Shown here: positions 1-58,194 of the stretch, in pieces
How positions within the stretch are numbered: position 1 is the stretch's first letter
Layout of the letters: each line of letters opens with the position of its first letter
DNA from: Mesaphorura yosii
Taxonomy: Eukaryota; Arthropoda; Collembola; Poduromorpha; Tullbergiidae
NCBI GenBank assembly: GCA_009869945.1
Contig: WIXG01000154.1
Span: 109,818-173,817, forward strand
Direction of reading: 5' to 3'
DNA: 64,000 bases
Program-made: the position numbers and the translations under genes
The notes under the pieces: model-generated
What the model was told of the DNA's origin: nothing
Databases searched by the model: none
The model's input: the letters and a program-made list of their open reading frames with translations, nothing else

Positions 1-1
1 G

Positions 2-163
2 CACATTTGGAATGAGAAACCGGCCATCGACGAGTTCGAGGCGTGGATCGCTGGGACAAGCGGTCAAGTGGAAAGAAAATGGGAGGAAAGAGCTTATAGC
101 TCGACATACGAAATTACAATTCGTGGTCCGTTGCTCTCGACTCTCGGCCAGGCCTTGAGCTAA
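2..163 (+). CDS. 3' end of an unidentified protein-coding gene (partial)
   Basis: The window opens inside a reading frame that runs 53 codons to a TAA at 161-163. Its last residues read RGPLLSTLGQALS. An AATAAA polyadenylation signal follows about 65 bp later, which supports this being the true 3' end of a + strand gene lying mostly to the left. No domain can be recognised from so short a tail, so no function is proposed. The frame could be fortuitous, but an open frame followed at the right distance by a polyA signal makes a terminal exon the better reading. Confidence 0.45.
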   Translation, partial: HIWNEKPAIDEFEAWIAGTSGQVERKWEERAYSSTYEITIRGPLLSTLGQALS

Positions 164-227
164 AGCACACCTCACGAATTAGGAGTCAGTCTTGCCCAGT
201 CCCTGTTCAATCAAAATGCACTTGTCT

Positions 228-233
228 AATAAA
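228..233 (+). promoter_or_regulatory. Polyadenylation signal AATAAA
   Basis: AATAAA lies about 65 bp after the stop at 161-163 and probably ends the transcript of the partial + strand gene. The rest of 164-578 holds nothing else I can identify; it separates that gene from the convergent chemoreceptor. Confidence 0.45.
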
Positions 234-578
234 ATTGACTTGACTCTGACCGACTTTCGGTGTGTGACGATCTAATGAGAAATTAATGTACTTTCATCCA
301 CGCTAGCAGGAAGGCAGCTGAGGATTGCAATCGATTTATTGGGATTTTCTGTGTTCTAGTCAGTCCTTATCAGTATTATTCATTGTCCAAATTACTACCT
401 TTTAATAGCACAAACAAAGAATCCAGCCCTCGACAAAAACGAACAGTTTCCTGCCGATTGACGAATTCGATTCGACTCGACTCGACATAGTTTCACTTAT
501 TCAAATCTCATTCATCTATGGCTTGGGACCAAATAGAATTTGCATTTGACGTACGACTTGAAATATGATAGAAACTTT

Positions 579-1820
579 TCAACGGAGTGCCATTAGAAGG
601 GAGAGAACCGTCTGCGCCACGACTTCAAGGGTAAGGACAACAAACGTGGTTTTCTTTATGACAGACAGACTCCCGATTTTTAGTGTCATGGGCCTGTAGG
701 TCTTAAATATTCTGAATTGGCTTCTGTACAGGAGGAAGGGCAGAGGTCCACGTCCACGCGCAGGAACGGGAACTGAGTGCTTCATTTGCTTCTCTTTCGA
801 TTTCTGCTTGTTGCCTCGTGCCGAGACAGCACGATTGCTCTTGCGAATGCGCCTCGCCCAGTCATAGAACGAATTCCTGTAATGTTCGCTTGCACTTGTG
901 AATCTGACCGCAAAGTCAAGGCAAGCTTTTGTCCCTCCAAAAACCCCGGCAGTGATCAGAGACAGGCGTACGGCACGTATCGGGCTTTGCAGTGCGACCT
1001 TGACCAGGGTGAATGCGCCAGAGATCTGAATGAGACAGCAGCACGCGAGGCAGGCGCCAAGCGTGTTCTTTAGGAACTCCGTCATGAAGGCATGGATCAC
1101 CTGGTGAGAGCGGAACAAAGTATGCTTGGCTTTTCTGGCTGAGGGCGGATCGGTCGGGTCGAAGGTTAGCCGGTTGAGGAAGTTGGCCATTGAGTGCATG
1201 TAGGTTACTTTGAGAAGCACGAAGAATGCGGCGTTAAAGAAGGTGGCTGCGACCAGGTACGCCCAGAAGAAACTCAGCAGGAGGTTGAGAGTCAAGTATT
1301 CGGACCGAAGAAGGCTGTACAGCCGGTGGCCTTTCTGAATCAGGACAAACACTCCAATCCACGTCACGCACGCCAGCGAGGAAAATGTTACCAGAATGAA
1401 TTTGGAAAAGATTGCTAACGTGTCACGCTGGCGCTGTTGTTGTTTCGCCCTGCTGAGTCCGTACAGCGCTGCCAGTCGTTTAGAGAATAAATGTACAGAC
1501 GAGAGGAGCGATGCAAACTCGTACGGGTACAAAATCGATTGCATTTGGATGGCAAGGGAGTAGATGAACCCAAAAAACGGAAGGGTGAAGTAAATGAGAT
1601 CGAACACGCTGGAGTCATCGGCAAACAGCGGTATTCCATTTAGAATAAGCGGCATCGCCTGAACTGCTATTTTGCACATCGTGACCCATCTCCAGACGCC
1701 AATTCGTGGCGCCACTTCCAATGTGTGCTTGCTTTTGTTGTACTGGTATGGGAGGAACCTGGTCGCGCCTCCAAAACGGATCAGATACGAAAAAAGCTTG
1801 AAGGACTCGTCGGAAATCAT
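579..1820 (-). CDS. Seven-transmembrane chemoreceptor, gustatory-receptor-like
   Basis: Intronless frame, 413 aa from the ATG at 1820 (MISDESF). The frame stays open further upstream to a Met at 1892, but the internal start better matches the N-termini of the two related receptors near 42-45 kb. Several hydrophobic stretches alternate with short polar loops, and the C-terminus (RPMTLKIGSLSVIKK then a final hydrophobic helix) aligns with the C-termini of those receptors. The family consists of inverted seven-pass, probably ligand-gated cation channels of sensory neurons in arthropods; the ligand cannot be predicted. The segment before the last helix carries an unusually basic loop (KSNRAVSARGNKQKSKEK). 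The canonical TYhhhhhQF motif of insect Grs is not obvious, so the assignment to Gr rather than another branch is tentative. Confidence 0.72.
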   Translation of the reverse strand: MISDESFKLFSYLIRFGGATRFLPYQYNKSKHTLEVAPRIGVWRWVTMCKIAVQAMPLILNGIPLFADDSSVFDLIYFTLPFFGFIYSLAIQMQSILYPYEFASLLSSVHLFSKRLAALYGLSRAKQQQRQRDTLAIFSKFILVTFSSLACVTWIGVFVLIQKGHRLYSLLRSEYLTLNLLLSFFWAYLVAATFFNAAFFVLLKVTYMHSMANFLNRLTFDPTDPPSARKAKHTLFRSHQVIHAFMTEFLKNTLGACLACCCLIQISGAFTLVKVALQSPIRAVRLSLITAGVFGGTKACLDFAVRFTSASEHYRNSFYDWARRIRKSNRAVSARGNKQKSKEKQMKHSVPVPARGRGPLPFLLYRSQFRIFKTYRPMTLKIGSLSVIKKTTFVVLTLEVVAQTVLSLLMALR

Positions 1821-1892
1821 GGTCTCGAGAGTTTTTCTTTGCTGGTCGTCGCCGCAGAAGGGAACAAACGAAACGTATTGCAGGCAGGGCAA

Positions 1893-2586
1893 GAATAAAA
1901 GAAAGAACGGAAAACAGCTAGGAGCTTTGACTTGTCTGCCGTGCCATGCCGTAAGTACAAATTGCCAAATTGATGCAATAATACTACTTTAGACCGAGCC
2001 TCGAAATTAAGCAAAGGAAATATGTATTTTTGAATTTTTGTGCACCGGAGGCAATTTTTGATATTGAGTTCTTGCAAGAATTCAGTTTTATTCTAGGAAA
2101 ACTATTTTATTTTGAATCGTAAGAAAGGCAGAATTGCAGAGCTCCATTCTTGCAATTGACAATTTGGGTGCCTTCTTTAACTTCGCTGATTTTTCAAAAC
2201 ACAAAACATGACAGCGACAATTTCTTGATACATCAACAAATTGGCATTCCATCAACTGCTGCAATTATTCGGTGGTCTGACCAGGCACGTCCTTTTCCTT
2301 TTACAAATTGGCTTTAAATTTGAATGTTCAATTTTCTTTACTCAATCGCTGCTGATTACGCGACCATTAAATACGGTGCACTTATTCTTGATTGCATTGA
2401 GCAAGGATTGTTGACGTCTTAACGTGTTTACTTAGCCTCAAGGGTAAAGCCAGAGTAGAGTTAGAGTAGAGAACTTGCATAGGACCAGCCTTGTTTATTC
2501 AAACTTGAAAATTGAATTGAATCACAAAAGGCGTGGCGTGGCGCGTGACAAAGTAAATTGCAGCTAAGTGCAGGTCAACTCTCAAT
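1893..2586. other. Intergenic, no recognisable feature
   Basis: AT-rich sequence upstream of the chemoreceptor. It probably includes that gene's promoter, but I see no clear TATA box or coding segment. Confidence 0.5.
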
Positions 2587-2700
2587 GAAGGGCCACGAGG
2601 AGTGAGACGGAACATAGTGTGCACCACGACTTCAAAAGTGATGAAAAGGAATGTCGTCTTTTTATGACGGACAGATTCCCGATTTTCAGCCTCATCGGTT
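2587..2700 (-). pseudogene. Remnant of a chemoreceptor 3' exon (C-terminal helix)
   Basis: About 115 bp on the minus strand align with the end of the chemoreceptor at 579-1820. The peptide PMRLKIGNLSVIK corresponds to PMTLKIGSLSVIK there. Immediately after that block one base is missing in a T-run (gtcgtcttttt here against gtggttttcttt in the intact gene), so the final helix continues only in a shifted frame. No upstream receptor sequence was found between here and 4.7 kb. It is best read as the leftover of a tandem duplicate that decayed. Confidence 0.65.
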
Positions 2701-4746
2701 CATTTTTTATCGAGGATTATTTCGCATGACACAAAACATGAAATGACACAATGCCAAATTAATCCGAAGCTTTTTAGGAACAGAAAATTCCATTAGCAGT
2801 AAACAACTAAATTAATCTGCAAGAAGCAAAGCGACCTACGGACACGTGAATGGTGAATCACTTGGTTTAATAAATAACCCCTTTCAATTTTCTCGGCCAT
2901 TTAAGATAGTGAGTGATTTCTTCTGAATGCTTTTACAACTACTTTAGAGAAAATGCAAAAGTCAATCTTGAACTTCTTACTGGTGCATTGCAACAAGCTT
3001 TAAATCGTCCCAAGAATTTATTGGACATGTGGCAATTCTGATTTCTCGAACTTTCCAGTATTATTTTGGCGTTCTTTACTTGATTATGAACTCACGACAC
3101 GAGAGAGGGCCAAAATGAATGGAAATCAGGAAGATAAACTGGGCTGTGTACTCTGGCCTGAGTTACAACTCACGTTTAATGGCTAATGGCTGCCGTGCCA
3201 CCATCACTAATTTAATTGGACAGGGATGCCACTGCCCAGTTAAAACCTAATGTGTAATGGAAAAAGAATTTATACAATCGAGCACTGGGGTCTGCTGTGG
3301 GTTCTGTCGGCTTCTTCACACCGCTTGTAAATGAATGATTTGAACTCATCATTAAGAAATTCTAACTTCTAGTCAACAGCTTTTAGCAGCTCGTGTCTTG
3401 TCTCCTGCCGTTCTACCTGACTTTAATTACTGGAAACTGCGTGTAATGGAAGTCGAAACTGAATCAACGAAAGTGAATCTTTCTTCGAGTAATGAACACA
3501 CAATGACGAGCAGATGATCCCGTGATTTCTGTTCCGATCCGCAAAAATGCAAGAATCAACGCCACCACTTGAGCTAGAGCCTCGTCGTTTCAGTAATCTG
3601 GCTTTCTCACGTGCACCTCCGTCATTGCCTGAAGGGCCAGCAGCAGCCCGGCCAGCATCTTGACAGCTGTAACTGTACAATTAAAACACAAGCAGACATA
3701 TAGCGAACTGACGGTTATACTGATAGTAACGAAAGCCGGAGTACTGCAATATTCAATGGTCAGTTACCTTTACCCCATCAAGCACTCCCTAGAAATGAGC
3801 TCCAGCTCTCAGTGTGTTCAGCGGGAGCAGGTTCACTCGGATCCCTCTTTACACAATCAGTCATGGATGGAATACTCTAAAACTCATAATTAGTAGTTAT
3901 GAATTAAGTACGTGAGAAATGCAATTCTTCTAACCTGTTAGGTCTAGGGTTAGGACTAGACACAACATGCTGCACGCTGTTTCGTAATGAATGTGAAGAT
4001 CGTCGAAAGCTATCGCCTTCATCTTCCAGGCATTCGAGATTCAATCGTCGGCTTTGTTCCTCTGTTTGCCTTTTGAGCTTGGCTTGAGATTTGGGCTGTT
4101 GCAAGTCGGAGATGTTATCGCCAGTAAGAAATGTATAAATGTATAAACTTTTAAAACGGAGTCAGTACCTCCTTGGCCGGACTTTGCGTTGTCTCGTCCA
4201 ATTTTCACCTTGTGATTCATGATTCAAGAAGCTTTTAATTGTCCATGTAAAGGCACAATTACGCTTTAATGACAAAGGCGTGTGCAAGTCTTAATTAGCT
4301 ACTTGCTTAATTGGGTTCAGTTCAGACCGCACCCTCTCCTGGAACATCAGCTTACGTAGGCGTCACTCGTAAATGGCCCAATCAACTGATCACGAGCCCT
4401 GGCGTGCTAGACGGTAATAATGCTCTGCTCGATCTGTAAACTTTGGACATCATGGAACTCACTCGCAAGTTGGCAAAGTCAGGCAGCAGCAGTTAATGAA
4501 AATAGGGTGCTGAATGCTTATTTATTGGAGAAGGCACTATTTTGAGCAACCTTTGCATTTTAAGAGCCACTTAACTGGGAACGTGCCAGCTTAATCTGCA
4601 TTGGCAATTCTCTGCTCTTAATTACGATGAGTAATTAGCTGCTTAATTGTCTTACTTGTAGTGGCTTGTGTGTCTGATCTAATGAATACCAACAGTTTCT
4701 GAATTCTGGCCGTCAGTAGCACGTTCAGCTTCAGTCAGCCTACAGA
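2701..4746. other. Intergenic region upstream of glutaminase
   Basis: About 2 kb without a convincing gene. Minus-strand frames at 3423-3680 (85 codons) and 3904-4104 (66 codons) show no recognisable domain and are not called. The last few hundred bases presumably contain the glutaminase promoter and 5' UTR; no clear TATA box was seen. Confidence 0.5.
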
Positions 4747-7444
4747 ATGGCGACCCATTTCAAGGAATCCGATGCCAAGGCTCCGACAAAGTCCCCCAGC
4801 GCACTGCGAAAGAATTTTTTCACATCATCCTTTAGTAATCTGGTCGAGAAGCGCCTCAGTCTCAAGAAGAAGAAATCCAATCCGACCATGGCGGCTTCGC
4901 TCCCGGCTTCCAATCACCAGGAATCGGCCCCGAGTAGCTTGGATCACGACGGGCACAGTCATGACGAAGCGTACCGAGCCAAGATCATCGCCGAGTACGA
5001 AATAGAAAGATCAAAGGGCTTAGTGGATTCGACAAGGAAAAACACGACAGAAAGTGAGCAGCATTCGACAACAACAAGTAACGAGAGTCTAAACGCTGAA
5101 CTCGGAGTCGGCGCGAGCGAGGGCGTCGCCGTTACAGCGCCGATCGATATCAAAATGGTCAAAATCCAGGAACCGTCGTTAGCGGGGCCTACGATCGAGC
5201 TCATTTCCGCGTCTCCGACTCCATCATCAGGAAGCGGGTCGATAGCGCAAAAGAAGAACAGATCAGCATCGATGCAGTGGGTCGCTATGCTGACTGAGGA
5301 CGGGGTTCAGGTGAATGCGGGGGAGTACGGAGACGACGAGGCGGAGGGCGACGACCTTTCTCAGAGCATGCAGAGCCTGGAAAAGCGCAAAAACTGGTTC
5401 AACAAGGTCGGCGAGAATGAGCCAGAAGAAACTAACAGCCAGGACGAGTCGGCGATCAGCGCACTGTACAAGAAACTGCGCAAGAATTCGACCTCGCCTT
5501 CGTTAAGGGACAGAAACACGCCAGAGCCTGAGCAGGCATCGTCTCCGGCTCGATACGTGGACAATCTCATCTTCGACATGTTTATGATCAGCGAGGATGC
5601 AGAAGAAGTCGTGCTTATCGGGACCTTTCTCGCCGCGCTCGAGCGCACTGGCCTCGGGCGTGGCGACCCACGCCTCGTCGAGCTATTCGAGAACCTGCGC
5701 CGAATCCGTAGGCAAATGGAGCTGAATGGCAAGCCGACCAGTTCGATCGAGACGCTGAAGCTGGACCGAAACGCGTTCAAGGCTGCCATCACGGACAACA
5801 TCGTCCTCATCTCGAAGGCATTCCGCCAGCAATTTGTAATCCCGGAATTCCAGAGCTTCTGCGGCTACATTGAGGACATGTACAACAAATGCAAGGATTT
5901 GAAGGGCGGGAAAGTTGCGAATTCTGTTCCTCAGCTGGCGAACGTGAACCCAAACTTCTGGGGCGTGTCCGTCTGCACGGTGGATGGGCAGCGATTCTCA
6001 ATCGGAGACACGAAGAACCCGTTTACCATTCAGTGCTGCAGGTAGGCTCACTTTTAACTTAAATATTAATTGGTAAGCTAATTAATTCACGATTCAAATC
6101 TTGTTCACTTCGCAGTAAGCCATTAGCATACGCAATTGCACTGAATGAACTTGGCGAGGAGCTCGTGCACCAGTACGTTGGTCAGGAACCTTCTGGGCGC
6201 ACATTTAACGAGCTGGTGCTCGATTACAATAGTAAGCGCACACTCAATTAACTAACTACGCAGCTAGACAACCTTTAACTTAATTACTGCGCATTTACTT
6301 AGAGAAACCACACAATCCAATGGTGAACGCTGGTGCAATTATTGTGTGCTCACTCCTCAAGCAATTTGTGAAGCCAGAAATGAGTCTGGCTGAAAAATTC
6401 GACTACACTTACCAATACTTCAAGGTAGGTGGATAATGAATGTACACATTGGATACGAATTAGCAATTTTCTACAGAAACTGGCTGGAGGAGAGTACATT
6501 GGCTTTAACAACGCCGTCTTCCTCTCCGGGCGGGAGGCAGCTGACCGGGACTACGCCCTGGGATTCTACATGCGGGAGAACAAATGTTTTCCGGAGGGCA
6601 CCAATCTCGAGGAGTGCATGGACTATTACTTCCAGATGTGCAGCATGGAGTCAAACTGCGAGTCAATGTCCATCATGGCAGCAACACTCGCCAACGGCGG
6701 CATCTGCCCCATTAGCGGAGAGAAGATTCTGAACCCAGACTCGGTTCGGGACGTGTTGGCGTTGATGCACTCGTGCGGAATGGTCGACTACTCAGGACAG
6801 TTTGCGTTCAAGGTCGGACTGCCCTGCAAGTCGGGGCTGAGCGGGGCCATCATGCTCACTGTCCCCAACGTGCTTGGCATGGCGGTCTGGAGCCCTCCGC
6901 TGGACAATCTGGGCAATTCCGTCCGTGGAGTCGCCCTGTGCCAGGAACTGGTTCAGGTGTTCAATTTCCACAAGTACGACAACTTGAAGCACGCCTCGGA
7001 CAAGGTCGACCCACGCAAGCATCGCTATGAGACGAAGGGCATGAACATCGTCAACTTGCTCTTCTCCGCGGCGTCCGGTGACGTGACTTCCATGCGTCGC
7101 CATCACTTGTCCGGACTCTGCATGAATGCAGCGGATTACGACGGCCGCACTGCGCTGCACTTGGCTGCTGCAGAGGGGCATCTTGAGTGTGTGGATTATC
7201 TGTTGCGGCAGTGTCACGTGAAGCATGATCCCGTGGATCGGTAAGCCTTGAGCAATCTTCCATCGTCCGATTCTCCATCGAATGATTGCACTGACTCACA
7301 ATTTCCTTCCTAATTAGATGGGGACATCACCCAATTTACGACGCGGAGAAGTTTGGACACTTTCATGTGGCAGAGTTCTTGCGCAAATGGGAGGCAGATC
7401 TAGAAAGTGGGAAGACGGGAGGCAGCATGGAAGTCGAACCGTAG
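4747..7444 (+). CDS. GLS: Glutaminase-family protein (GLS-like) with altered active site
   Basis: Five exons (4747-6041, 6116-6231, 6303-6424, 6477-7240, 7318-7444) give 807 aa. Residues 1 to about 265 are a poorly conserved, low-complexity extension. Then comes the GLS N-terminal helical region ([11 protein letters not shown] area), the beta-lactamase-like glutaminase domain (about 380-690) and C-terminal ankyrin repeats ([13 protein letters not shown]). Glutaminases hydrolyse glutamine to glutamate and ammonia in mitochondria using a Ser-x-x-Lys pair. Aligning from memory with human GLS, the lysine (K433) and neighbouring Gln429 are kept. The nucleophile Ser286 is Cys430, Tyr249 is Ser393, Glu381 is Gly, Asn388 is Asp, Tyr466 is Val and Val484 is Leu. 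Asn335 and Tyr414 are kept. The fold is clear; normal glutaminase activity is doubtful. It may be a pseudoenzyme or have a changed substrate. Confidence 0.9.
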
Positions 7445-7992
7445 TCGTAAATATGAATGCAACAATGTCATGTTATAACCGATCTGCGTATTATGCATTT
7501 TGTGCCTATTCTGCCTATTAAAAATTTAAACATTCATGCAGGAGAGCGGGCTGTTCAATCGCTTCCATTCTCAGCTTCTGAAATACAATATAATATGGAA
7601 CTTGTCTAGGAGTACTCGTTTTCCAATAGTGTGGCCGATTTTCCTTATGAAGCCATTTGGATCTGACACGGAGACTTTGAATCTTAAGTTAGAATTGAAC
7701 TGAATGCGATACAACTTTGTAAATTTTCGCAAAATGCTCCAGCTGCTGCGGTTAGGTTAGGTTAAGAGGTGCCAATTTCTTCCGCCAAATTTGAATATTT
7801 ATAATTAAATATGAAGACATCACTCTCACCAGAATTCGCCAACTTCTATTCTGCCTTGCTTCTGTGCCCAAAGTCCTATATGGCTTCCCTTATGAGAAGT
7901 CGAGTCGTAAAAATAAATGCAAGTATGTCATGTCATAAGCGTTCTGCTCATTATGCATTATGTGCCTGTGCCTGTTCTGACTATTAAAACCT
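7437..7992 (+). repeat. Direct duplication of the glutaminase 3' end
   Basis: The stop-codon/3' UTR region 7437-7520 is repeated at about 7905-7992. Both copies share an ordered series of blocks: agtcgtaaa, aatgca, tgtcatg, tataa or cataa, tattatgca or cattatgca, tgtgcct, ttctg, ctattaaaa. Divergence is around one base in five. No coding sequence for the rest of glutaminase is found with the second copy, so it is a relic of a partial tandem duplication. The stretch between the copies and on to 8289 has no other feature. GGTTAGGTTAGGTTA near 7750 is a short telomere-like run. Confidence 0.65.
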
Positions 7993-8289
7993 GAAGCATG
8001 AACGTCTTTCCTCTTTCGTTTGCTTCTCCACGTTTTGCCACGCTTCACTTAATTTATGTCAGCAGCTGCAAAATGACTTTATTACCAGAGAAAAGTTGAC
8101 ACGGGTGAGGTTGAGTTGAAGATATTTAGATTTGACATTCGATAAAGAATATGAATGAATAAAATACTTGACTAGAAGATTTGGAGACTGGATGAGTATT
8201 ACTTGGTACTGTTGCACTGCAATGCAGCTGCTGCTGGTGAACAAAATCGAAAATCTGAAAGAAGACCGACAGCTTCCGTCGAAGACGGT

Positions 8290-9225
8290 TTAACCAGTCA
8301 TCATCTCCATGAATTCTGTGGGCAGAAAACAAAAGATTCTCTTTATCAAATCAAATGCACAAAAACTAAAACACGAAAAAAAACCGACAGCGCAAATGAA
8401 AGAGCAATTAAAAAATTGGTCCAGTGCCAAGATTCTTTTGTTGATAATGAGAGACAGGCATGCGTGAAGTCGCAAGTCGGCAAGTCACCTGCCTGTCTTT
8501 CACGATCATTAGCCAGCAATTAGAGGAGTTGAAATAAAAAGTGTCGTCAAAATTCTGTTTGCATACCGTCAAAGTCGACTGTGCCCGAGCCGTCCTCATC
8601 CACCTCTTCAATGATGCCGTCCAGCTCCGCTTCGGAGAGAGTGTCATCAATCTCGTGCATGATTTGCTTCAGTGTTTTGGTTGTAATGTAGCCTTGGCCT
8701 GATCATTAATCATACGCGACAGCAATTAGTCAGTCAGTCAGCCTGTCGTAGTGACATTTCACACTTTTCTCTTCTCACTTACCGTCTTTGTCGTACAGCC
8801 TGAACGCTTCCTTCAGCTCGCGTGCCACGTCCGCGTCGTCCTCCTCAATGATGAACTTGGCCGCGAGCGTGCAGAATTCGGTAAATTCAATCTCACCAGA
8901 GCCGTCAGCGTCGACTTCGGCGATCGTCTCGCGCAGGGTCTCGCTGGTGAAGGCCGTTCCCATCATGTGCAGGATGGAGCCGACCATTTCCGGGGTGATG
9001 TAACCCTTTCCCTGCGAAAACGTGTCGAACGCCTTCTGCAAGACTGAAAACCAGCAAAGCAAGAGTATGAGCATGAGGTAGTTTACAATTTGTAACATAC
9101 AAATCGTCATATCACTTACTGGCAATCTGAGCCTTGTCCAAATCCGACTGCAACAGACAATAGACAACAATTTATCAAAAATATCGAAAAAATTGACGCG
9201 AGCGTAAAAAAAAATTGCTTACCAT
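8290..9225 (-). CDS. TpnC: Troponin C
   Basis: Five exons on the minus strand: 9223-9225 (only the ATG), 9120-9147, 8783-9043, 8567-8698, 8290-8315. They total 450 nt, 149 aa, ending EFMEMMTG as in other arthropod troponin C proteins. Four EF-hands are visible. Loop II (55-66, [12 protein letters not shown]) and loop IV (131-142, [12 protein letters not shown]) have all calcium ligands. Loop I (around 19-30) is degenerate and loop III (95-106, [12 protein letters not shown]) lacks the final Glu. Binding at sites II and IV only is the arthropod pattern. The protein is the calcium sensor of the thin filament in striated muscle, with troponin I and T. Calmodulin is excluded by the degenerate loops and the C-terminus. 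Confidence 0.92.
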
Positions 9226-17065: not shown

Positions 17066-18189
17066 TTAACAAACTTGTGCTTCCATTTCCTGGCCCGTCA
17101 AAGCAGCGATAATGTTCCTGGACGTCATTGTCGCCATCGCCGTGCGAGTTTCGAGCTCAGCGCTTCCCATGTGTGGAATCAGCACTGAAATCGAATCGAA
17201 GTTAGCACCAGAGTACAAGTCAATCATTCTATTATTCTTCATGCTTTCTGAATGCAATTACCACAGTTCTCCAGTTTCGTCAGCTCGTGATCGGGCGGCA
17301 ACGGTTCAGGCGTCATAACGTCCAGTCCCGCTGCTCGAATTTGGCCCGATTTGAGCGCCTGGACCAAATCTGGCTGATTGACGAGCTCGCCGCGGCTCGT
17401 GTTGACGAGAATGGCGGTTGGCTTCATGCGAGCGAACGCGGCCGCATTAAAAATCCCACGAGTCTGTTGATTCAGTGATGCAATCACGATGATGTAGTCT
17501 GAGTCGGACAACAGCCGGTCAAACGGGACGAATTCGGCGGCAGGCACTTCCGGATGCGGGCTCCTTGACGTGTAGATGAATTTGCGGACCCCGAACGGTG
17601 TCATAAGTGCAAGAATGGCTTGAGCGATGCGCCCAAATCCGAAGAGGCCAACCGTGGAGCCTTTCAGCCCCGTTCCACACATCCACGTCGGAGTCCAGGT
17701 CCACTCTCCCTTGACAAGAGCGCGGTTGCCCTCGAACAGGCGACGAGACGTGGCGAGGAGGATAGCGACGGTCATTTCAGCGACCGTGTCCGTCAGTACG
17801 TTTGGCGTGTTGCCAACTTTTACTCCATATCGTTTCGCGGCAGCGATATCAATGTGATCGTAGCCCACCGACGCATTTCCAATCACCCGGAGGTCGGGAC
17901 CGGCTGACTGCAGAAGTTCGTCGTCGACGCGGATTCCCGACTGGGCGGAGCAGAAAATGGCGTGCACGCCGCGTACTCGGGTCAGGGACTCAGGGCGAGG
18001 GACAGCGCCGGAGCGGTTCCAAATGTCGAGTTCACAACTGCAAAATAAGTAAGCAAATCCTAAGGTCTCAAATCTAAAAGTCTTGCCAATGCACTACACG
18101 TTGAAGAGCTCTTACCCTGCAGCCGCCAAGAGGTCCAACGCCTTTTGCGGGACGCCGTGCAGCCCCACGAAAACTTTAAATCGAGGCAT
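17066..18189 (-). CDS. GRHPR: Glyoxylate/hydroxypyruvate reductase, copy 1
   Basis: Three exons (18189-18116, 18037-17262, 17184-17066), 322 aa, close to the 328 aa of human GRHPR. The protein is a D-isomer 2-hydroxyacid dehydrogenase reducing glyoxylate to glycolate and hydroxypyruvate to D-glycerate with NADPH. Visible landmarks: TPNVLTDTVAEMTVAILLATSRRLFEG, split here by length only, the dinucleotide loop VGLFGFGRIAQAI (the third Gly of GxGxxG is Ala), the catalytic Arg in NTSRGE, the following Glu in MTPEPLPPDH, and the catalytic His in IPHMGSAE. Exon-intron structure is identical to that of the neighbouring copy, so the pair arose by tandem duplication. Confidence 0.92.
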
Positions 18190-18479: not shown

Positions 18480-19595
18480 TTAGCAGACTGTAGCCTCCAT
18501 CTCCTTGCCTTGCAGCGCTAGAAGAATGTTCCTGGACGTCATCGTGCACATTCCGATCCGCGTCTCGATCTCGGCGCTCCCCAAATGCGGAATGAGAACT
18601 GAAACAAACAAATGATACTACAGCCTTTTCTCGTTTCAACTGCCGTACAATTTGACTGCCAATTCGTTCTTACCACAATTGTCTAATTTTGTCAGCTCGT
18701 GGTCAGGCGGCAGTGGCTCCGGGGTCATGACGTCCAGCCCCGCGGCCCGAATCTGTCCCGACTTGAGGGCTTGGACCAAGTCCTGCTGGTTAATAAGATC
18801 TCCTCGACTCGTATTGACGAGAATGGCGCTCTTCTTCATCTTCTCAAACGCCCTCGAGTTAAAAATGCCGCGAGTCTGGTCGTTGCTTGCCGCAATCACA
18901 ATCAGGAAGTCAGACTCGGCGAGGAGACGGTCGAAGGACACGAATTCTGCTGTGTCCACTTCCGGATGAGGGCTCCTTGAATTGTAAATGAATTTCCGCA
19001 CTCCGAACGGGATGAGACGGGCCACAATCGCTTGGGCGATGCGCCCGAATCCAAACAGACCAACAGTCGAGTTCTTGACTCCCCATCCGCAAAGCCACGT
19101 CGGTGTCCAGGCCCACTTTCCTTCCAAGAGAGCACGGTTGCCCTCAAACAGCCTGCGTGATGTCGCTAACAGGATTGCAATTGTCAAATCAGCCACCGCG
19201 TCGGTAAGCACGTTTGGAGTGTTGCCAATTCGGACGTTGTGACGTTTCGCGGCCTCAACGTCCACATGGTCGTATCCAACCGAACAAGTTCCGATCACCT
19301 TCAAGTTTGGACCGGCGGCCTGCAGTAGCTCTTCGTCGACTTTGATTGACGGTGAAGCACAGAAGACTGCGTCGACCCCAGACACCAGTCGCAGGAGATC
19401 AGGACGCGTAATGATGGCGGGTTTGTCCCAAATTAGCAGTTCACATCTGTGAGGAATTGCAATTACAATACAAACATCTCCAGCGATTTAATGACGACGG
19501 CGAATTCCTTACCCTGCATTAGTCAAGATGTCAAGAGCCTCATGGGGCAGGTCTCCACGGGACACGAGGACTTTGGGGCGTTTGGAACCGAACAT
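18480..19595 (-). CDS. GRHPR: Glyoxylate/hydroxypyruvate reductase, copy 2
   Basis: Three exons (19595-19513, 19446-18674, 18598-18480), 324 aa. Intron positions and phases match copy 1 exactly and the last exon has the same length (119 nt). The first exon is three codons longer and the second one codon shorter. The same landmarks are present: VGLFGFGRIAQAI with Ala in the third glycine position, NTSRGD with the catalytic Arg, MTPEPLPPDHEL, and IPHLGSAE with the catalytic His. Most differences from copy 1 lie in the N-terminal substrate half (for example CELLIWDKPAIITRPDLL). Both copies look intact and presumably active. Confidence 0.92.
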
Positions 19596-26369: not shown

Positions 26370-28626
26370 TTATGGCGGTCCATAAAACGCAAGCGATGTA
26401 GGCCTCATGCCGTCGAAGTCTACGCTCACTTCGCTGATTGTGATCTTCTCTGCCTCGGCTTCGTGTTGGTCTTTGGCCGCATTTTCGTCCACCGACGCTG
26501 GTTTTGAAGTCTGTGGCTGTGCCTTACCGCCAGCCTTTCGTTTCGACTGTGCCGCCGTCTTGCTCCTCGGCCTCCCGTTGTGAACCTTCATGTGCATGCG
26601 AAGATAGTCACTCACAGCGAAGCGTTTGTCACAAATCTCGCACTTAATCGGCTTCAGCGTCGTGTGAATAATTTCGTGCCGGTCTAGGCAATACTTTTCC
26701 GAGAATGTCTTCCCACAGGTCCTACATTTGAAAGGGCGGTCCTCTGGCGCCGTGTGGACAGCGTAAATATGCTTTTGCAGCTGCGTGCTTTTCTTGTACG
26801 CCTTCGGACACTGTGTGCAAGGGTACCTTCTTATGTCTTCGTGCACCGCTTCGACGTGCGTCTTGAATGCAGCCGCATGGAAGGTTTTGAAGGGGCAACG
26901 ATCGCAGAAAAAGTTGTAGTTGCCCGTGTGAGTCTTCAGGTGCACGTCGAAAAGTCGCTGGTTTCCACACAACCGCCCGCAACCAGGCTCGGGACAACTG
27001 AAAGGGTGTGGGACCGTGGGGTCGGGATGCTTCAGGAGTCTGTGCATTTTCAGACTTAATCGCAATTTGAACATGGCGCCACAAGTCTCGCAAGCGTAAC
27101 GCTTCTCCTTCGAGTGAGTCATGTGGTGGTTCCGCATGTGCTCGCGGGTTCTTGCGGTCTTTCCGCAGATTTTACACTTGAAATTCGGCGTGCCCGGCTC
27201 CATCTGAACGATGACGGTATCGGGGATTTTGGACTTCCGGCATGTGCCGCCTTGCACCCGTAAATGAGTCTGAAACGTCGACTCGGTGTAGAAACGCTTG
27301 CCGCATGTGGAGCAGAAAGTGGCGAATTGCGACGTGCCATGCACCTTATTGTAGTGATACTGAAGGTAGAAATCTCCCTGGAAACGGGCGGAACAAAGCG
27401 TGCACGTGGTGGTCGCGCGCTTGCCCTTCTTCTTAAGCTTCTTGACCTTCTCCTCACGGGGTACCAGCGGCTTCCTTCGCCTTGGCCTTGAAAGTCTTGT
27501 CAACTTTCGTCGTGTCTGTGCCGATTTTTGCGTCTGCGCATTTGATATTGATGAATCCGAACCGTCAACGTCAATTTTCCGGAGTTTCACTGCACAGGTT
27601 TTCAATCTACAGAAATATTCGAAATACTATGGGTTTGACTGAATTCGTCATACTACACATTACGAAGTACGATAATTGCTTAAGAATTACGTACTTTGGA
27701 TCGGCAAGAACAAAATTGTACACCTCGCCTTTACGATCCGATTCGCTGTCGAACTGGTGTTCCATGTGACCAGGGTCGAAGTCGGCGTCATCGTTATCGA
27801 TATCATGGGTACTGTGGCCGAAATCTCCAAGAATTACTTCTGGCTCTTCTGGCTTCCTTAATTTCCTTATTCGAGATCGAGAATTGCTATTCGGTGTTGC
27901 GTAGGTTTTTCTTGGTCGGCTTGTTCGGGGTTGAGTCTCAGTAGGGGAATGTGATGCATTTGTCACTAATGATTCGTCCGCATCTTGGTTCGCAACGGCA
28001 GCTTTTGCTTGAATATCTGGAATATTCAAAATTTGAGGATCAATGCTTAATGCTTTAATCTGCAAGTGTAAGTGGTAACTAAGAAATTATTTCATACCTG
28101 ATACAATCACCTCTCGGAGCTGATCCAGCAGAGAACATTGCGTTCTAGCTTTCTTTCCTCGTCCACGTCCTGCAGATATGCAGCTGTGCAGAGCCAAGCT
28201 ACCTCCAGAGCTGGCGACATGGTCACTGAAGCACTGCTGAATCTGAGTCTCGACCTGATTCCTCGATTTCCCAATCTGCAGCTGCAAACGTCGAACTTGA
28301 TCATATAAGTCGGTAATCCTTGTGATCGTGCCTTCACACACTCCACAAAATACAGGCCACGTGTGTCCGGCAGCAGACGGCAGGTCAGTCTGTAAGGAAT
28401 TCGTACACGAGGGTGATAGCTGGAGCAGTTTGCAGAATGTGCCAACGCTGGCAGTGGTTCTCGGCGAAAATTCTAAAGGCTCCGCGATGATAATTTGACC
28501 TGCTTCAGTTTTGATGGTGATTGCAGCGGATGATGACTGCGTATCCCTTTTCGAGTCTGTAGTACACTGATTGCAAATCAGACACTGCTGAGTGGAGGGG
28601 GCCTTGGTGGGGCTTGTCCGATCCAT
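26370..28626 (-). CDS. ZAD-C2H2 zinc-finger protein A
   Basis: Three exons (28626-28098, 28016-27695, 27606-26370), 695 aa. Exon 1 holds a ZAD domain: the first Cys pair is CLICNQC and the second CGVC, with the conserved TFCKLLQLSP helix between. Exon 2 is a basic/acidic linker. Exon 3 carries nine C2H2-type fingers; the second (CSTCGKRFYTESTFQTHLRV) ends His-x-Cys rather than His-His, and the fifth has the CPEPGCG spacing. ZAD proteins dimerise through the ZAD and bind DNA or chromatin through the fingers; this is the largest transcription-factor class in many insects. Intron positions and phases match genes B and C. Confidence 0.9.
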
Positions 28627-28839
28627 TATTTCCCTGCCTGGATTTGAAAGAAACAAGGAAAGTCAGGAAAAGTTATAAATAAGTCGAGAAACCTTCCTGC
28701 AGTATGAAAAGAATTCAAACGTTATATGAGAGCGGGCGAGTCCAAGTTGCTCTTTGTTACGTGCTGCTGTTGTTGCGTTGCAATTTGATTTTTCTTGTAA
28801 CTTTTAATTACTGTTTTATTTCTCTAAAACTTGACTACT

Positions 28840-29000
28840 ACAGAGTGACCCAAAAGTAACTTGACAGCTTAGAAAGGACCTATCCGACTTTCCCAATGAC
28901 GCCATTAGTTTGTCGGTTTATTTTAAACGAAAGCCCTAAAGTGAGACAAAATTTGCATATGTCTTTTCAAACCTGTCATGTTACTTCTGGGTTACTCTGT
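28840..29000. mobile_element. 161 bp MITE-like element with mariner-type inverted repeats
   Basis: The left end (28840-28866) begins ACAGAGTGACCCAAAAGTAA. The right end (28974-29000), read in reverse complement, begins ACAGAGTAACCCAGAAGTAA. The 27 bp ends differ at three positions. The left copy is preceded by T, so a TA target duplication is possible there; the right side reads TG. There is no coding capacity inside. Tc1/mariner-derived miniature elements have this kind of CAGxGTGxCCCAAAAGT end. It lies between ZAD genes A and B, about 210 bp upstream of gene A's start. Flanks 28627-28839 and 29001-29123 hold nothing else. Confidence 0.7.
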
Positions 29001-29123
29001 GCTTCCTTATCTCATGTACTCTTCTCTACAAAATTACGAAAGAATTAGCTAGAGTTCGAATTTTTTCCCACTACAGATGCTGAAAGCTTCGTTTTTTAGA
29101 CTATTTTCACTTTTTGTAACGGT

Positions 29124-31223
29124 TTACAGTCCCACCAACGACGAAGGCTGAATTTCTGCCCCTGCAACTGCTGGTAGCTCTCTAGATTCAATCAGTGACG
29201 CCGATTTGTTCCTACGCTGTTTTCCCGTATGGGTCCGCATGTGAACTCGGAGATAATCACTCACAGCAAAGCGTCTGTCGCAAATCTTGCACCGAAGTGG
29301 CTTCAAGTTTGTATGCTGAGTGATTACATGCCGGTTCAAACTGTAGTTGTCTGGAAAAGTCTTGGGACACTGTGAGCACTTGAAGGGGCGATCTTCAGGA
29401 GCCGTGTGAGATCCGTAAATGTGTTTCTGCAGCTGAGGCTTTGTCTTATACGCCATTGCACAATGAGGACACTTGAAATTTCGTTGACCTTCGTGGACGG
29501 TCCGGATGTGTGACGAGAGCGTGCCAGGGTAGACAGTTTTATATGGGCAGTAGTTACACAAATGAAATTCGTTCCGGTGTCCCATTTCGTGAAATTCAAG
29601 CTGCTTTCGCGAGCCGAACACTCTTCCACAGCCCGGCTCCGAACAGGCGAATGGATGCGGGACGTTCGGGTCTGCATGCATTGCTAAATTGTGCTGCTCG
29701 AGCGAACGCTGCAAGCTGAATCGATCGCCACAAATTTCGCACGTGTAGCGCTTGGGATTCGCGTGGTTCGCGAGATGATTCTCCATTTGGATTCTGTTAA
29801 TAATGGCCTGCCCACACATTTTGCATTTGTAGTTCGGTGTGCCCACTTCCATCGACACACTGACCGAGTCAGGGAGCTGTGCCTTCAGACACGCCCCGCC
29901 TTGCACGCGTAAATGAGTCTTCAGTGTCTGCTTCGAGAAGAAACGTTTGCCGCACGTGGAGCAGAAAGTTAAATAATGTTTCATATCGTGGACCTTCTTG
30001 CGATGGTACTTCAGGTAACTCTCTTTCGGAAACACCGCTGAGCAATCTGGACATTCGGCCGGACTTTTTGTCTTATTTTTTTTCTTTGGACAGCCTGAGC
30101 CTGGTTTTCGCTTTTCGTATTTCCGTTTTGCTCTTGGAACTTTCCGTTTTGATTTCGACTTTTCTTGGTTTTGCTGAGCCTTCGTAGTGTCGACATCAAG
30201 TTTCGGAATTTTGATTGTGCACGTCCTCGCTCTAAAATAGGAAATATGTGCATCAATAAATCCTCGTTAAGTGCAGAAGCGAAAGTTAGAATCTTCTTAC
30301 TCTTACTTTACGTCACCATATTTGTCGAATATAACGGGATTTTCGGGAGCGAACGAATTGTCGCTCCTGTTATCCTCTTCGTCATCAATGCTAGCGGAGC
30401 GGGAGTATCTTTCGTTGTGGTCAAACTTCCCTATGCTCGCACTGGCATTATTTTGTGCAGATCTACATTTTCTGTAGTAGGCTGGGGGTGGGGCGGTACA
30501 AGAGGACCCCTGCGGATTTTTGACTGAACGAGCTCGTTTGGGCTCACTTGCAGCCAGGACGGGTTCTTGGTCTTCCTTTTCACAATTATTTTTTGAAGAT
30601 GAAGATGACTGCAAATCTACGACAAATGCAACAAATGTCAATTTGCAGCTGAAACTAAAATTGTGATCATTTGCCATTTATTTACCTGTAACAATCAATT
30701 CACGAAGCTGTTCAACAGCAGTGCATTGAGATATTTGGCTTGGGTCTGCGGTAAAATATTTTCGTGGGCGTCCACGACTTCGTCTTATGGTTTTGCAGGT
30801 GTGACTTCCCTGCAATTCCTCGAATCTGGAGACGTGATCACTGAAGCAGTGTTGAATCTGTGCTTCGACTAGATTCCTTGAACAATCAATCTGCAGCTCC
30901 AGTTGACGAACTTGGTCGAATAAGTTTGCGACATCCTGAATGGTTCCTTGGCACTCGGTGCAAAATATTAGCGGTCCATTTGCGGCAACAAGAGGCAGAT
31001 TACCAAGCAATGAAATCGTGCACGCAGGCGAAAGTTGTAGAAGTTTGCAGAAAGTTTCCAAGCTCGCTGGCTCCGGGTCAGGAAGCAGTTGACATTCCCC
31101 ATCTTCAGTTTTGATGTAGGCAACGGAAAAATGTGTCTGTTCTTCAGATAGATTCAGACAGTCTTGACTGAGATCAGCAGCCGTATCTCGATTACAAATC
31201 AGACACTCTTGCACTGTCGCCAT
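29124..31223 (-). CDS. ZAD-C2H2 zinc-finger protein B
   Basis: Three exons (31223-30686, 30616-30307, 30231-29124), 651 aa. The ATG chosen (MATVQECLICN) directly precedes the ZAD. The ZAD has the CLICNRD and CTEC metal pairs and the ETFCKLLQLSP helix also found in gene A. Exon 2 is a Ser/Asp-rich linker. Exon 3 carries nine fingers in the same order and spacing as gene A, including the odd second finger ending in a single Cys and the CSEPGCG finger. The C-terminal finger CKICDRRFAVSDYLRVHMRT is nearly identical to gene A's. A and B are therefore the closest pair in the array. A sequence-specific nuclear regulator is likely; target unknown. Confidence 0.9.
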
Positions 31224-31566
31224 GTCCTGAGTGCTTATGGTAGAACTCACCCCGTCAATCTTCTCCACAATTTAATGAAAGAGTTTTCGAAATTAAGGAT
31301 AATGACATTTTTCTTGTAGTCGAGGAGAAGAAATCAGAAGCTGTTCCTGTCACTTGTGAGCTGCTGACTATTTGAATATGTATGACAGTTCAAAAACTGA
31401 TGTGAGCGGGCAAACAAAGAGCTGCGTTCCAAAATCTTCAATCTTCGTCGTTTCTTATTATGGCTCGATTCAAAACTACTTTTCGGCTTTATTGAGTTCA
31501 TTTGGGAAAGTAAGAAATAAACTAAATCAATCAGTGAGCAGAGCAATTAAACTTAAAAACGGCATT
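31224..31566. other. Intergenic between ZAD genes B and C
   Basis: 343 bp. TTTATT near 31486, the reverse complement of AATAAA, is the likely polyA signal of gene C. No other feature was seen. Confidence 0.45.
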
Positions 31567-33660
31567 TTACAGTCCGACAATCTGCTCAACGTCAGATGAT
31601 TTTTGCTGCTTCGGGTCGGAAGTCACGACTGAAGTCAGAGGTGGTGGTGTATTCATGCCAGTGGTTCTGTCATCACCGCCATCAGTCCCGTCCCTGACTG
31701 CCTCCTCTTGAAATCCAGCACGATCATCTGGCTTGTGCATATTTTTCATATGGAGCCTCAAGTATTCTGGAACCGCAAACCGCCGCTGGCAAATCTGGCA
31801 CTGATTCGGTTTCTCGCCCGTGTGCAGTACTTCGTGCCGCCGTTGATTGTACCCATCACAGAATGTCATTCCACACCCCGGATACTTGCATTTGTACGGT
31901 CTGTCTTCGGGTGACGTGTGCACGGCAAGCATGTGCTTCTTGAGTCCATTCCGTTTGAAAGCGACTCCGCACACCTTGCACTCGTACTTTCGTAGCCCCA
32001 GGTGATCGATCTCGACGTGGATTCGGAGCAGCGTGGCCGTGTAAGTCCTGAAATCACATTGGGTGCACGGAAAGTCCAGCAGGTTGAGGTGGGCGTTTTT
32101 CTGGTGTATGCGGAGGCTTACGCCCGACCCAAATGACCTGCCGCACCCTTCATAGAAACATCTATGCGGGTGCTCAGAGTCAGGCACAGTCTCCGGATGA
32201 ACACATAGTTTGTGGGAAACCAAGCCCAAATTCGTAGTAAAATTATTTCCGCAGATGTCACAAATGTATTCTTTGATTTTTGTGTGCGTTGTGATATGGT
32301 TGAAAACCTTGCTCCTGGTGGTCATTTTGACGTTGCAGATGCTGCATTGGTATTGGTAAGGACCAGCCGCACGAATTACAGTCACGTCCGGTGGAAGGGG
32401 GGGTTTCTTGCAAGTTCCACCTTGCATCTTGGCATGAGTGACCAACCGGGATTTGGTAAGAAAGCGTTTGCCACAGTTTGAGCAGATTTCGGTGAAATCG
32501 GAAAGCTGATGGTTTTTGAGGCAGTGGTAATTCAGTTGAGTTTGACGTTGGAAAGCTGCAGGGCAATCAGTGCAAATGAAGTTCCTTGTGAGATTCCGCC
32601 CTTCTCCGTCTCTACAAATTGGCCTTTTGTCTGGACGCCTCAAGTCGTGATGTTTCACTGCACGTATTGGTGTCGGGCGCTTGGGCTTGCTCGATGCATT
32701 CACCTCCTTCCCTTTTCGCCCTTTAGATTCGACATGCTTCCTGTCCCGGCTCCTTCGACGTGACACCACTGTCGTTGTAATTGTGTTGTGCAAGTTCACT
32801 GTGCATTCTTTCAACCTAAAACCATAATCACGCTGTCATAATGACGTGCAACATTAAACTGAGTTTAGGGTAGCAGGTGCTTCATTTACCGAAATTCCGG
32901 GTACTGCTGTCGGTCAGTGTTACCAGATTCCTGCTCTTGTTGAACATATTCTGTCTTTCCACGTAGTTGGCCTACAGATTCATCGACATTGTGATCCGAA
33001 TCCGAATCCCAGGGCAAATCACGCTGCGGATCGCTTCCCGTGTCGGCGTCGTTCCCTTCATAGTGATTATCATCTTGTACTTCTGATTCAATACGGAGCA
33101 CACGACTTCGAGCTTTCTTCTTCTCCACATCTTCAAGTTCAAATGCAACAGGATTCAGTAAACACGCAGATATCCCTCTTTCTTCAATCTACAAAAAGTT
33201 ACTGGATGTAATTACCTTTCACAAGTATCTCGCGCAATCCATCCATCGTACTCGCTTTGGCCGATCTAATATTCTGGCATTTACGAATTTGTGACTTCAC
33301 CTTGGACTTGAACCGGTCAACCTTCCTCTGCAGTTTTAGGATGTCTTTAAACAGCTGACTGACGCTGCATAAGTTGCACGTACAATCGTCACAAAATATT
33401 CTGTCTCCGCTGGGTAAACCCGTCTGTAATCTCGCACAGGAAGCAGGTGGTAATCCCATCAATTTGCACAATGACCTGACGTGTTCGCCTTCTTCGCTGC
33501 TGGCAGCTCCTTCTAGCAAGAATCGAGGTCGGCGACTTGGACTTGAAGGTTCGGATCCACTCTCGTCAGTCTCCATCTCCACTTTTATGTAGGCGTCGTC
33601 ACCTGGACCGATGGCACAAAGAGCTGCACCACAAATTAAACAGCTGGAGTTGGACTCCAT
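31567..33660 (-). CDS. ZAD-C2H2 zinc-finger protein C
   Basis: Three exons (33660-33216, 33130-32890, 32815-31567), 644 aa. The start MESNSSCLICG leads straight into the ZAD (CLICG and CDDC pairs, LCKLMGLPPASC helix). Exon 2 is an acidic linker. Exon 3 has nine fingers in the same order as A and B, including the second with His-x-Cys ending and two CxxxxC-type fingers (CFYEGCG, CKYPGCG). The finger surfaces and ZAD diverge more from A and B than those do from each other, so C is the oldest split. After the fingers comes a Thr/Ser/Pro tail. The shared intron phases show all three genes derive from one ancestor. Confidence 0.9.
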
Positions 33661-56967: not shown

Positions 56968-58194
56968 TTAAAACAAAAGTGCAATGGACGCCAAAACGGC
57001 AGTCAATGAAGTCAAAGTCAAATCAAGCCTCAATCTACTTGATCCATTATTAATGGACACCTTCTCCACATAAGTATTCGGGTTTGTATTGTAACTGTCC
57101 AGCCCCTTCCACCATCCGTAGTGACCTTCACCGCCGTACCGTCCTCCGGGTAGGTCGGGATCCGTGAGTCGTATGTCGCTCTTCCAGGGCTCGTCAAACG
57201 CTTCGAAAAGATACGTGCGGTCTTTATTCTCTGAGGCGAGCTCGTTCATTCCTATCCAGAAGGCTTTCATGTTCTCAAGGTTGTTGTACTTCGAAGGAGC
57301 GTTCTTGCTCCTCCCGGACGAGGGCCAGCCTGTGTCGCCAATCATGTACTGGAAGTCGTCGCTTGGGTTCAGCTTATGCAGGTAATCGTGAATCCTCTCA
57401 AACTGTGCGCTGACGTCTTCGACCGCGGCCTGCACACCTTTCTTGACGGATTCAGTCGATGGGAAGTAGTTGCACATGATGAAGTCGGAGTCAATTACAA
57501 TTTGGGTCAGCGTTTTATTGGCTGGGCCGTTGTCTACGATATGGTGGCAGGTATGCGTCCGGACACCGACCTTGAGCCCGGCCGCCCTGGCGCGCTCCTT
57601 GTTCTGATTAATCAGTTTCAGTACTTCTCCTCCACGCTCGTCGTCATGGATGTACTGATTAGTGAAGATGAGCCCCCAGACTGTGCCGGGATGCTTTGCG
57701 TTTGCTTCTCGTGCTGCGGCGAACGCGGACTCGACTTCTTGCCTGAATATTTCAGGATTCTCGCTCTGGTGAATGCCTTGAGCCATGGATATCAGCGTTT
57801 TCCCGGCTTCGGCGTTCAGCTCGCTGGCAGCTTTCGCGACCAGCCCGTTTGAGTCGCCTTGATCGTATGCCTTGCCAAGACTCCCGACGGTCGTGCCCAT
57901 GCTGTACGTCGCAATGTGAGTGAATTTGGAGGCGATGTGCTTCAACATGATTTTGATGTCATTTAGATTGTACGAGTTCCGTGGCGGAATGTTCTCGCCC
58001 TCCCACTGCTTTGTGTACGGAGAGAAACTGACTCCGACGTACTCTCGATCAAATTCCTGGGCCACGCCCGCGCTGATGCAGCCGATCTGAAAAATATTCC
58101 AGTTTAGAAAGTCAAGCAAACCTTTAATCGACTAGATGGAAAAAGAAATTCTTACCGTCAACACGAATATCGGCCAATATTTTTGTAGTTTCAT
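56968..58194 (-). CDS. Secreted GH17 (beta-1,3-glucanase family) protein with altered catalytic sites
   Basis: Two exons (58194-58156, 58086-56968), 385 aa. Residues 1-22 are a signal peptide and the C-terminus (NNGSSRLRLDLTL then a hydrophobic tail) looks like a GPI-anchor signal. GH17 landmarks: GVSFSPYTKQWEGE at the start, TGWPSSGRSKNAPS and LFEAFDEPWK. GH17 enzymes cut beta-1,3-glucans with two glutamates, in VGNE (acid/base) and SEsGWPS (nucleophile). Here the first motif reads FTNQ (Gln157) and the second GDTGWPS (Asp264). Both glutamates therefore appear replaced, so the protein may bind glucan without cutting it. GH17 is a fungal, plant and bacterial family, making horizontal acquisition likely; the intron and signal show it is now a eukaryotic gene. 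Confidence 0.85.

Follow-up and report, generated by a model that had tools for sequence, protein, structure and literature searches.

Can a glutaminase that has lost most of the residues contacting its substrate be kept by selection, and what would such a protein do? The question is raised by gene A, which lies on contig C154 of the Mesaphorura yosii assembly (93 Mb in 1127 contigs), within a stretch of 64,000 nucleotides that is referred to here as the window. A first-pass annotation made from the sequence alone had described a glutaminase-fold protein with a replaced nucleophile at this locus, and had offered two readings of it: a regulatory pseudoenzyme that assembles with a true glutaminase, or an enzyme with a cysteine nucleophile and another substrate.

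The catalytic pocket of gene A

Gene A is made up of five exons that together encode 807 amino acids and a single terminal stop codon (Table 1). All exon borders are GT/AG, there is no internal stop, and the four introns, at 52-77 nt as calculated from the exon coordinates, are too short for alternative exons. Pfam analysis of the protein places an EF-hand_14 domain at residues 272-366 and a Glutaminase domain at 388-678, followed by ankyrin repeats, which is the domain order of animal (kidney-type) GLS. The match to the Glutaminase family (PF04960, E = 8.5e-107) runs over positions 1-286 of the 286 in the profile, identifying A as a full-length family homologue, and the solved structures closest to it by sequence are kidney-type glutaminases (phmmer against the PDB, best E = 1.7e-160). 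Human GLS/KGA/GAC (PDB 8gwr, 8ima, 3ss3 and others) likewise has EF-hand_14 ahead of the Glutaminase domain and ankyrins after it, and the order of glutaminase domain then ankyrins is also the one given for the human enzyme in an excerpt of PMC10770349.

Table 1. Coordinates of gene A and of its replaced pocket residues in the window. Residue changes are given as human GLS residue followed by residue of A.
Feature	Position in window	Strand	Details
Exon 1	4747-6041	+	Long N-terminus, EF-hand_14, start of glutaminase domain; Y249>S393, Q285 kept (Q429), S286>C430
Exon 2	6116-6231	+	K289 kept (K433); activation loop, F318 kept (F462)
Exon 3	6303-6424	+	N335 kept (N479); filament-interface F355 kept (F503)
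Exon 4	6477-7240	+	E381>G529, N388>D536, Y414 kept (Y562), Y466>V614, V484>L632; start of ankyrin region
Exon 5	7318-7444	+	End of ankyrin region and stop
Y249>Ser393 (lid Tyr)	5923-5925	+	Codon TCT; TAC in B and C
S286>Cys430 (nucleophile)	6034-6036	+	Codon TGC, within exon 1, 5 nt before exon end
E381>Gly529	6528-6530	+	Codon GGG; GAA in B and C
N388>Asp536	6549-6551	+	Alignment to human GLS
Y466>Val614 (catalytic Tyr)	6783-6785	+	Codon GTC; TAC in B and C
V484>Leu632	6837-6839	+	Alignment to human GLS

For comparison with the human enzyme, residues were numbered so that the serine of the QSCVKP motif of human GLS is 286, a setting under which the other numbered residues of the papers fit their stated letters. 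Six of ten pocket residues are replaced in A (Table 1), while Q285, K289, N335 and Y414 are retained. The ten were picked in the first-pass annotation after sight of the sequence, and they agree with published human lists: excerpts of the respective papers name eight of them (Ser286, Tyr249, Asn335, Glu381, Asn388, Tyr414, Tyr466 and Val484) as contacts of DON (PMC4575731), K289, Y414 and Y466 as proton-transfer residues (PMC10770349), and Gln285 as a docking contact (PMC13204110). The alignment of A to human GLS is free of gaps over human positions 221-347 (phmmer, PDB), and a 4-aa insertion between N335 and E381 lies away from the named residues. The earlier residue mapping was therefore right for all six substitutions and all four retained residues; the gap-free alignment claimed for 249-286 turns out to be part of a longer one, and the description of an intact frame in five exons agrees with the exon borders, the 807 codons and the one terminal stop. 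As for the range first assigned to the feature (5900-6900), it spans most of the catalytic domain, but the whole gene occupies 4747-7444.

Two ways in which the canonical residues might have been overlooked were rejected. Equivalents of Ser286, Tyr249, Glu381 and Tyr466 do not occur at shifted positions, the alignment being gap-free around Ser286, and a different splice at 6041/6116 cannot restore Ser286 because the cysteine codon lies inside exon 1, upstream of the donor at 6042.

In place of the S-x-x-K motif of active glutaminases, A has C430-C-S-K433; of the proton-transfer tyrosines, Y414 is kept and Y466 is Val; and of the substrate contacts Y249, Q285, N335, E381, N388 and V484, only Q285 and N335 remain. 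Because the nucleophile, a proton-transfer Tyr, the lid Tyr and amino-acid contacts have all been lost, A is very probably devoid of glutaminase activity, judging from its sequence. On the other hand, the four retained pocket residues, K289 and Y414 among them, weigh against a pocket that is wholly unused.

Paralogues and the pattern of change

Two further glutaminase genes were found in the same assembly, B on contig C389 (771 aa) and C on contig C711 (819 aa), with gene models assembled manually on the basis of their splice sites and of alignment. Both have all ten pocket residues, and the canonical glutaminase that the first-pass annotation had proposed to look for in this genome is thus present twice. 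Over human positions 221-533 (n = 313), A is identical to B at 277 positions (88%), to C at 235 and to human GLS at 195; the corresponding values are 252 for B and C, 202 for B and human, and 190 for C and human. B resembles A in that three intron positions in the catalytic domain are common to both, and differs from it in its intact pocket and in having further first exons, in phase, that on inspection by eye resemble a mitochondrial presequence. C resembles A in its long N-terminus and in the position of the last intron, but it has the full set of pocket residues, and its intron positions within the catalytic domain are different. The long N-terminus of A shares short stretches with both B and C. 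Codons 393, 430, 529 and 614 of A, four of the six that changed, are two bases away from their counterparts in B and also from those in C.

To what extent is the change focused on the pocket? B, C and human GLS agree at 180 of the 313 catalytic-domain positions, and A departs from them at nine (H230Y, E233D, Y249S, I250V, S286C, E381G, N388D, Y466V and V484L). Six of the ten pocket positions are changed in this set versus three of the 170 others (Fisher p = 3.8e-7). In the mirror comparison, B departs at 0 of 171 positions and C at 20 of 191, none of them in the pocket, although this comparison admits only the four pocket positions kept by A, and B and C retain all ten regardless. A wider reference was provided by 86 bacterial relatives, mostly Proteobacteria by record title, that comprise 6 of 207 matched plasmid records and 80 loci of at least 592 confirmed stretches. 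At 49 of the positions the bacterial relatives are also at least 95% identical; A keeps 42 of these, and of the seven that it changes, six belong to the pocket (hypergeometric p = 1e-4). Among the matches listed, Y249, S286, K289, N335, E381, N388, Y414, Y466 and V484 occur in 86/86 bacterial relatives, Q285 in 85/86 and Cys at position 286 in 0/86, with the qualification that two patterns served to retrieve 80 of the 86, and that one of these patterns contained QS-x-SK and so required Ser, biasing positions 285-289. Scanning for relatives with the A/B/C alignment gave 59 pattern matches in the genome-contig collection and 80 in the viral contig collection, none of which was confirmed. Within residues 385-680, 17 changes are found in A only (B and C being the same); six are the pocket residues, and another five (A392N, I394V, R399N, D401N and M461T) fall within the lid, next to it or within the activation loop.

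The rate of change was analyzed in two ways. Comparison of the catalytic domains of A and B gave pN = 0.065 and pS = 0.81 (NG86), indicating that synonymous sites are saturated, and the omega of 0.024 obtained for the A branch with a three-taxon codon model is for this reason a rough value. An omega of 1 on the A lineage was rejected both for the catalytic domain (9.4 log units, p = 1.5e-5) and for residues 270-807 (13.1 log units, p = 3e-7). A value of 0.3 was also rejected, 0.1 was rejected weakly (p = 0.013 and 0.004), and a separate omega for the A lineage was not favored over one common omega; in several of the codon-model fits the branch to C was at its upper bound. In relative rate comparisons, A had accumulated more changes than B: 17 vs 4 in the catalytic domain (p = 0.007), 12 vs 3 in the EF region (p = 0.035) and 28 vs 14 in the N-terminus (p = 0.044), with p = 0.11 for the ankyrin region, so some relaxation is possible. 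The dN/dS measurement suggested in the first-pass annotation thus gives an omega of about 0.02 on the A lineage and rejects neutrality. Its claim of targeted change in the pocket, as opposed to general decay, is borne out by this result together with the share of pocket positions changed and the intact frame and splice sites. Gene A combines the features of a pseudoenzyme: it is an intact homologue, catalytic residues are missing, and it is maintained by selection.

Assembly surfaces and localisation

The residues named for the assembly surfaces of glutaminase were compared among the three proteins. The helical-interface residues F355, F373, N375, F378, D412 and Q416 are the same in A, B, C and human GLS, and residue 379 (Q379 in human) is replaced by Leu in each of the three M. 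yosii proteins. By sequence, A is therefore as human at six of the seven filament-interface positions and as B and C at all seven. A also keeps the R387/E397 pair, which an excerpt of PMC10912226 locates at the filament dimer-dimer interface. The activation-loop pair R317/E325 of human GLS is changed in A, B and C, and the loops of A and B differ at one of 27 positions, namely 317 (Thr in A, Met in B). In the wider interface helices A and B differ at 4 of 41 positions, which is not clearly fewer than in the whole domain (36 of 313). Since divergence of these helices is close to that of the entire domain, the surfaces are compatible with co-assembly of A and an active paralogue but are not evidence for it, and conservation of the interfaces is also expected of a homo-oligomer.

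Of the phosphate site (R317, K320, R387, Y394 and K398), A keeps R387 and Y394 only. Human K320 and K398 are replaced in A and likewise in B and C. Position 317 is Thr in A and Met in B and C, and in all three position 320 is Glu and position 398 is Asn (window 6116-6231 and 6477-7240; loci L009 and L010). With these basic residues absent from all three proteins, phosphate activation of the human type is doubtful. The K253A mutant of human GLS2, in which the lysine matching 320 by number offset is replaced, is described as anion-independent in an excerpt of PMC10912226.

The N-termini bear on where these proteins would meet. In B, two upstream exons (L009 1804-1983 and 2534-2652), which by eye are mitochondrial-presequence-like, join in phase to the core exon at 3716. 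B also has a long first exon (L009 2767-3467) with the same joining phase as the presequence-like set, and its alternative first exons suggest isoforms for two compartments. In A and C a single exon carries both the long N-terminus and the beginning of the core. A tblastn search of window 1-4760 with the two putative B exons found no presequence-like exon upstream of A (best E = 1.0), and the search upstream of C gave one 13-aa match (E = 0.003). An AG at 5534-5535 in A, near the place that corresponds to the B junction, is followed by a codon start, and its phase differs from that in B. A is thus probably not mitochondrial by the route used by B. As it has no B-like presequence exon, A would, if it is located as this suggests, meet only a non-mitochondrial form of B, or C.

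What gene A may do

The reading that we place first, tentatively but as one that may well hold, is that A is a pseudo-glutaminase that has lost hydrolysis, whose fold is kept by selection, and which joins an active paralogue as a dead subunit and so tunes its activity or filaments. A would enter the tetramers or filaments of that paralogue through the conserved assembly surfaces, and the dead subunit would then modulate the activity or the filament state of its partner. Co-assembly and regulation by A are both steps that we infer. In favor of this reading are the six changed pocket residues and their concentration in the pocket, the filament-interface residues and activation loop that are nearly as in B, the low omega on the A lineage and the presence of two potential partners with intact pockets. 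The dead paralogues of AdoMetDC and deoxyhypusine synthase in trypanosomatids play a role of this kind. Excerpts of the relevant papers describe an inactive copy beside active relatives for the trypanosomatid AdoMetDC prozyme (PMC5201418), a deoxyhypusine synthase paralogue (PMC3663545) and plant PDX1.2 (PMC6829848). For the two trypanosomatid proteins these excerpts report a complex with the active enzyme, whereas for A, which belongs to another enzyme family, the complex is one that we infer. A narrower proposal, that A co-polymerises with active subunits and controls filament assembly or activity from its place within the polymer, is rather unlikely in that specific form. According to an excerpt of PMC10912226, the Y466W change in human GAC prevents hydrolysis and the filaments are persistent. 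Given the behavior of this dead mutant, a genetically encoded dead subunit would, if the proposal is true, give glutamine breakdown a regulator built into the filament itself. As long as the enzyme is active, any role of glutaminase assembly beyond catalysis is difficult to isolate. A paralogue that is naturally dead yet conserved, that has the named assembly residues unchanged and that shares its genome with two active-looking partners would offer a direct test of such a role.

A different role, unlikely but the strongest of the alternatives, would have A as a lone non-catalytic protein outside active-enzyme assemblies, serving either as a ligand sensor or as a scaffold by means of its ankyrin repeats and N-terminus. 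Its EF-hand_14 and ankyrin domains are intact, it retains the long N-terminus with the short stretches common to B and C, and the Y>S, E>G and Y>V changes should make the pocket more open and less polar, so that it could hold another metabolite. A lone scaffold would have no need, however, of the named filament and tetramer residues, which are as in the active paralogues except at 317.

About as improbable, and marginally more so, is that A is an enzyme with a cysteine nucleophile, C-x-x-K replacing S-x-x-K, that acts on another amide or amino-acid-like substrate. The Cys that replaces Ser is a possible nucleophile, the four kept pocket residues are at hand, the contacts E381 and N388 are altered as a new specificity would require, and selection has been purifying overall. 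Against it stand the replacement of the proton-transfer residue Y466 by Val and of the lid Tyr by Ser, as well as the absence of Cys at 286 from the bacterial relatives listed, subject to the Ser-demanding fetch pattern. If A were Cys-dependent, it would represent new chemistry in the family, as the Ser-Lys pair is found in human GLS, in B and C, and in 86/86 bacterial sequences among the matches listed. Between the two options of the first-pass annotation, the sequence of A leans toward the regulatory pseudoenzyme over the Cys enzyme with another substrate.

Least probable by a wide margin is a decaying or recently dead pseudogene or a sequence error, which might be suggested by the six changes in the catalytic site and by a rate of evolution somewhat above that of B, but which conflicts with an 807-codon frame whose five exons all have correct borders, with the rejection of omega = 1 over both spans, with the 42 of 49 near-universal positions kept and, for sequence error, with the four codons two bases from both paralogues, unlike single-base errors; gene A is a long-retained paralogue, not a pseudogene.

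Pseudoenzymes as such are common, and a glutaminase one would be the new element here. Among the matches listed, no description of a pseudo-glutaminase was found in the open-licence literature, and that literature gave no match for a glutaminase in a springtail or in Collembola.

Several other features of the window were recorded. The 3' end region of gene A is repeated about 460 bp downstream (window 7443-7533 and 7903-7999) in blocks that are 85% and 82% identical, a partial tandem duplication. Directly downstream of gene A, on the minus strand (8547-9218), are exons of an EF-hand protein that is troponin-C-like by eye, with EF-hand domains detected for 8775-9218. Receptor-like frames in the window matched no Pfam model. 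Three similar C2H2 zinc-finger frames lie in a row at 26370-32835 on the minus strand (the middle one by Pfam, the others by eye); two of the three have, upstream, small frames that contain cysteines and match no Pfam family above its cut-off. Two similar, adjoining D-2-hydroxyacid dehydrogenase frames on the minus strand (17239-18093 and 18636-19487, the first by Pfam and the second by eye) appear to be a tandem duplication. An open frame at 56968-58131, also on the minus strand, has a marginal match to Glycosyl hydrolase family 17 (29.6 bits vs a cut-off of 28.2), a family that is unusual for an animal.
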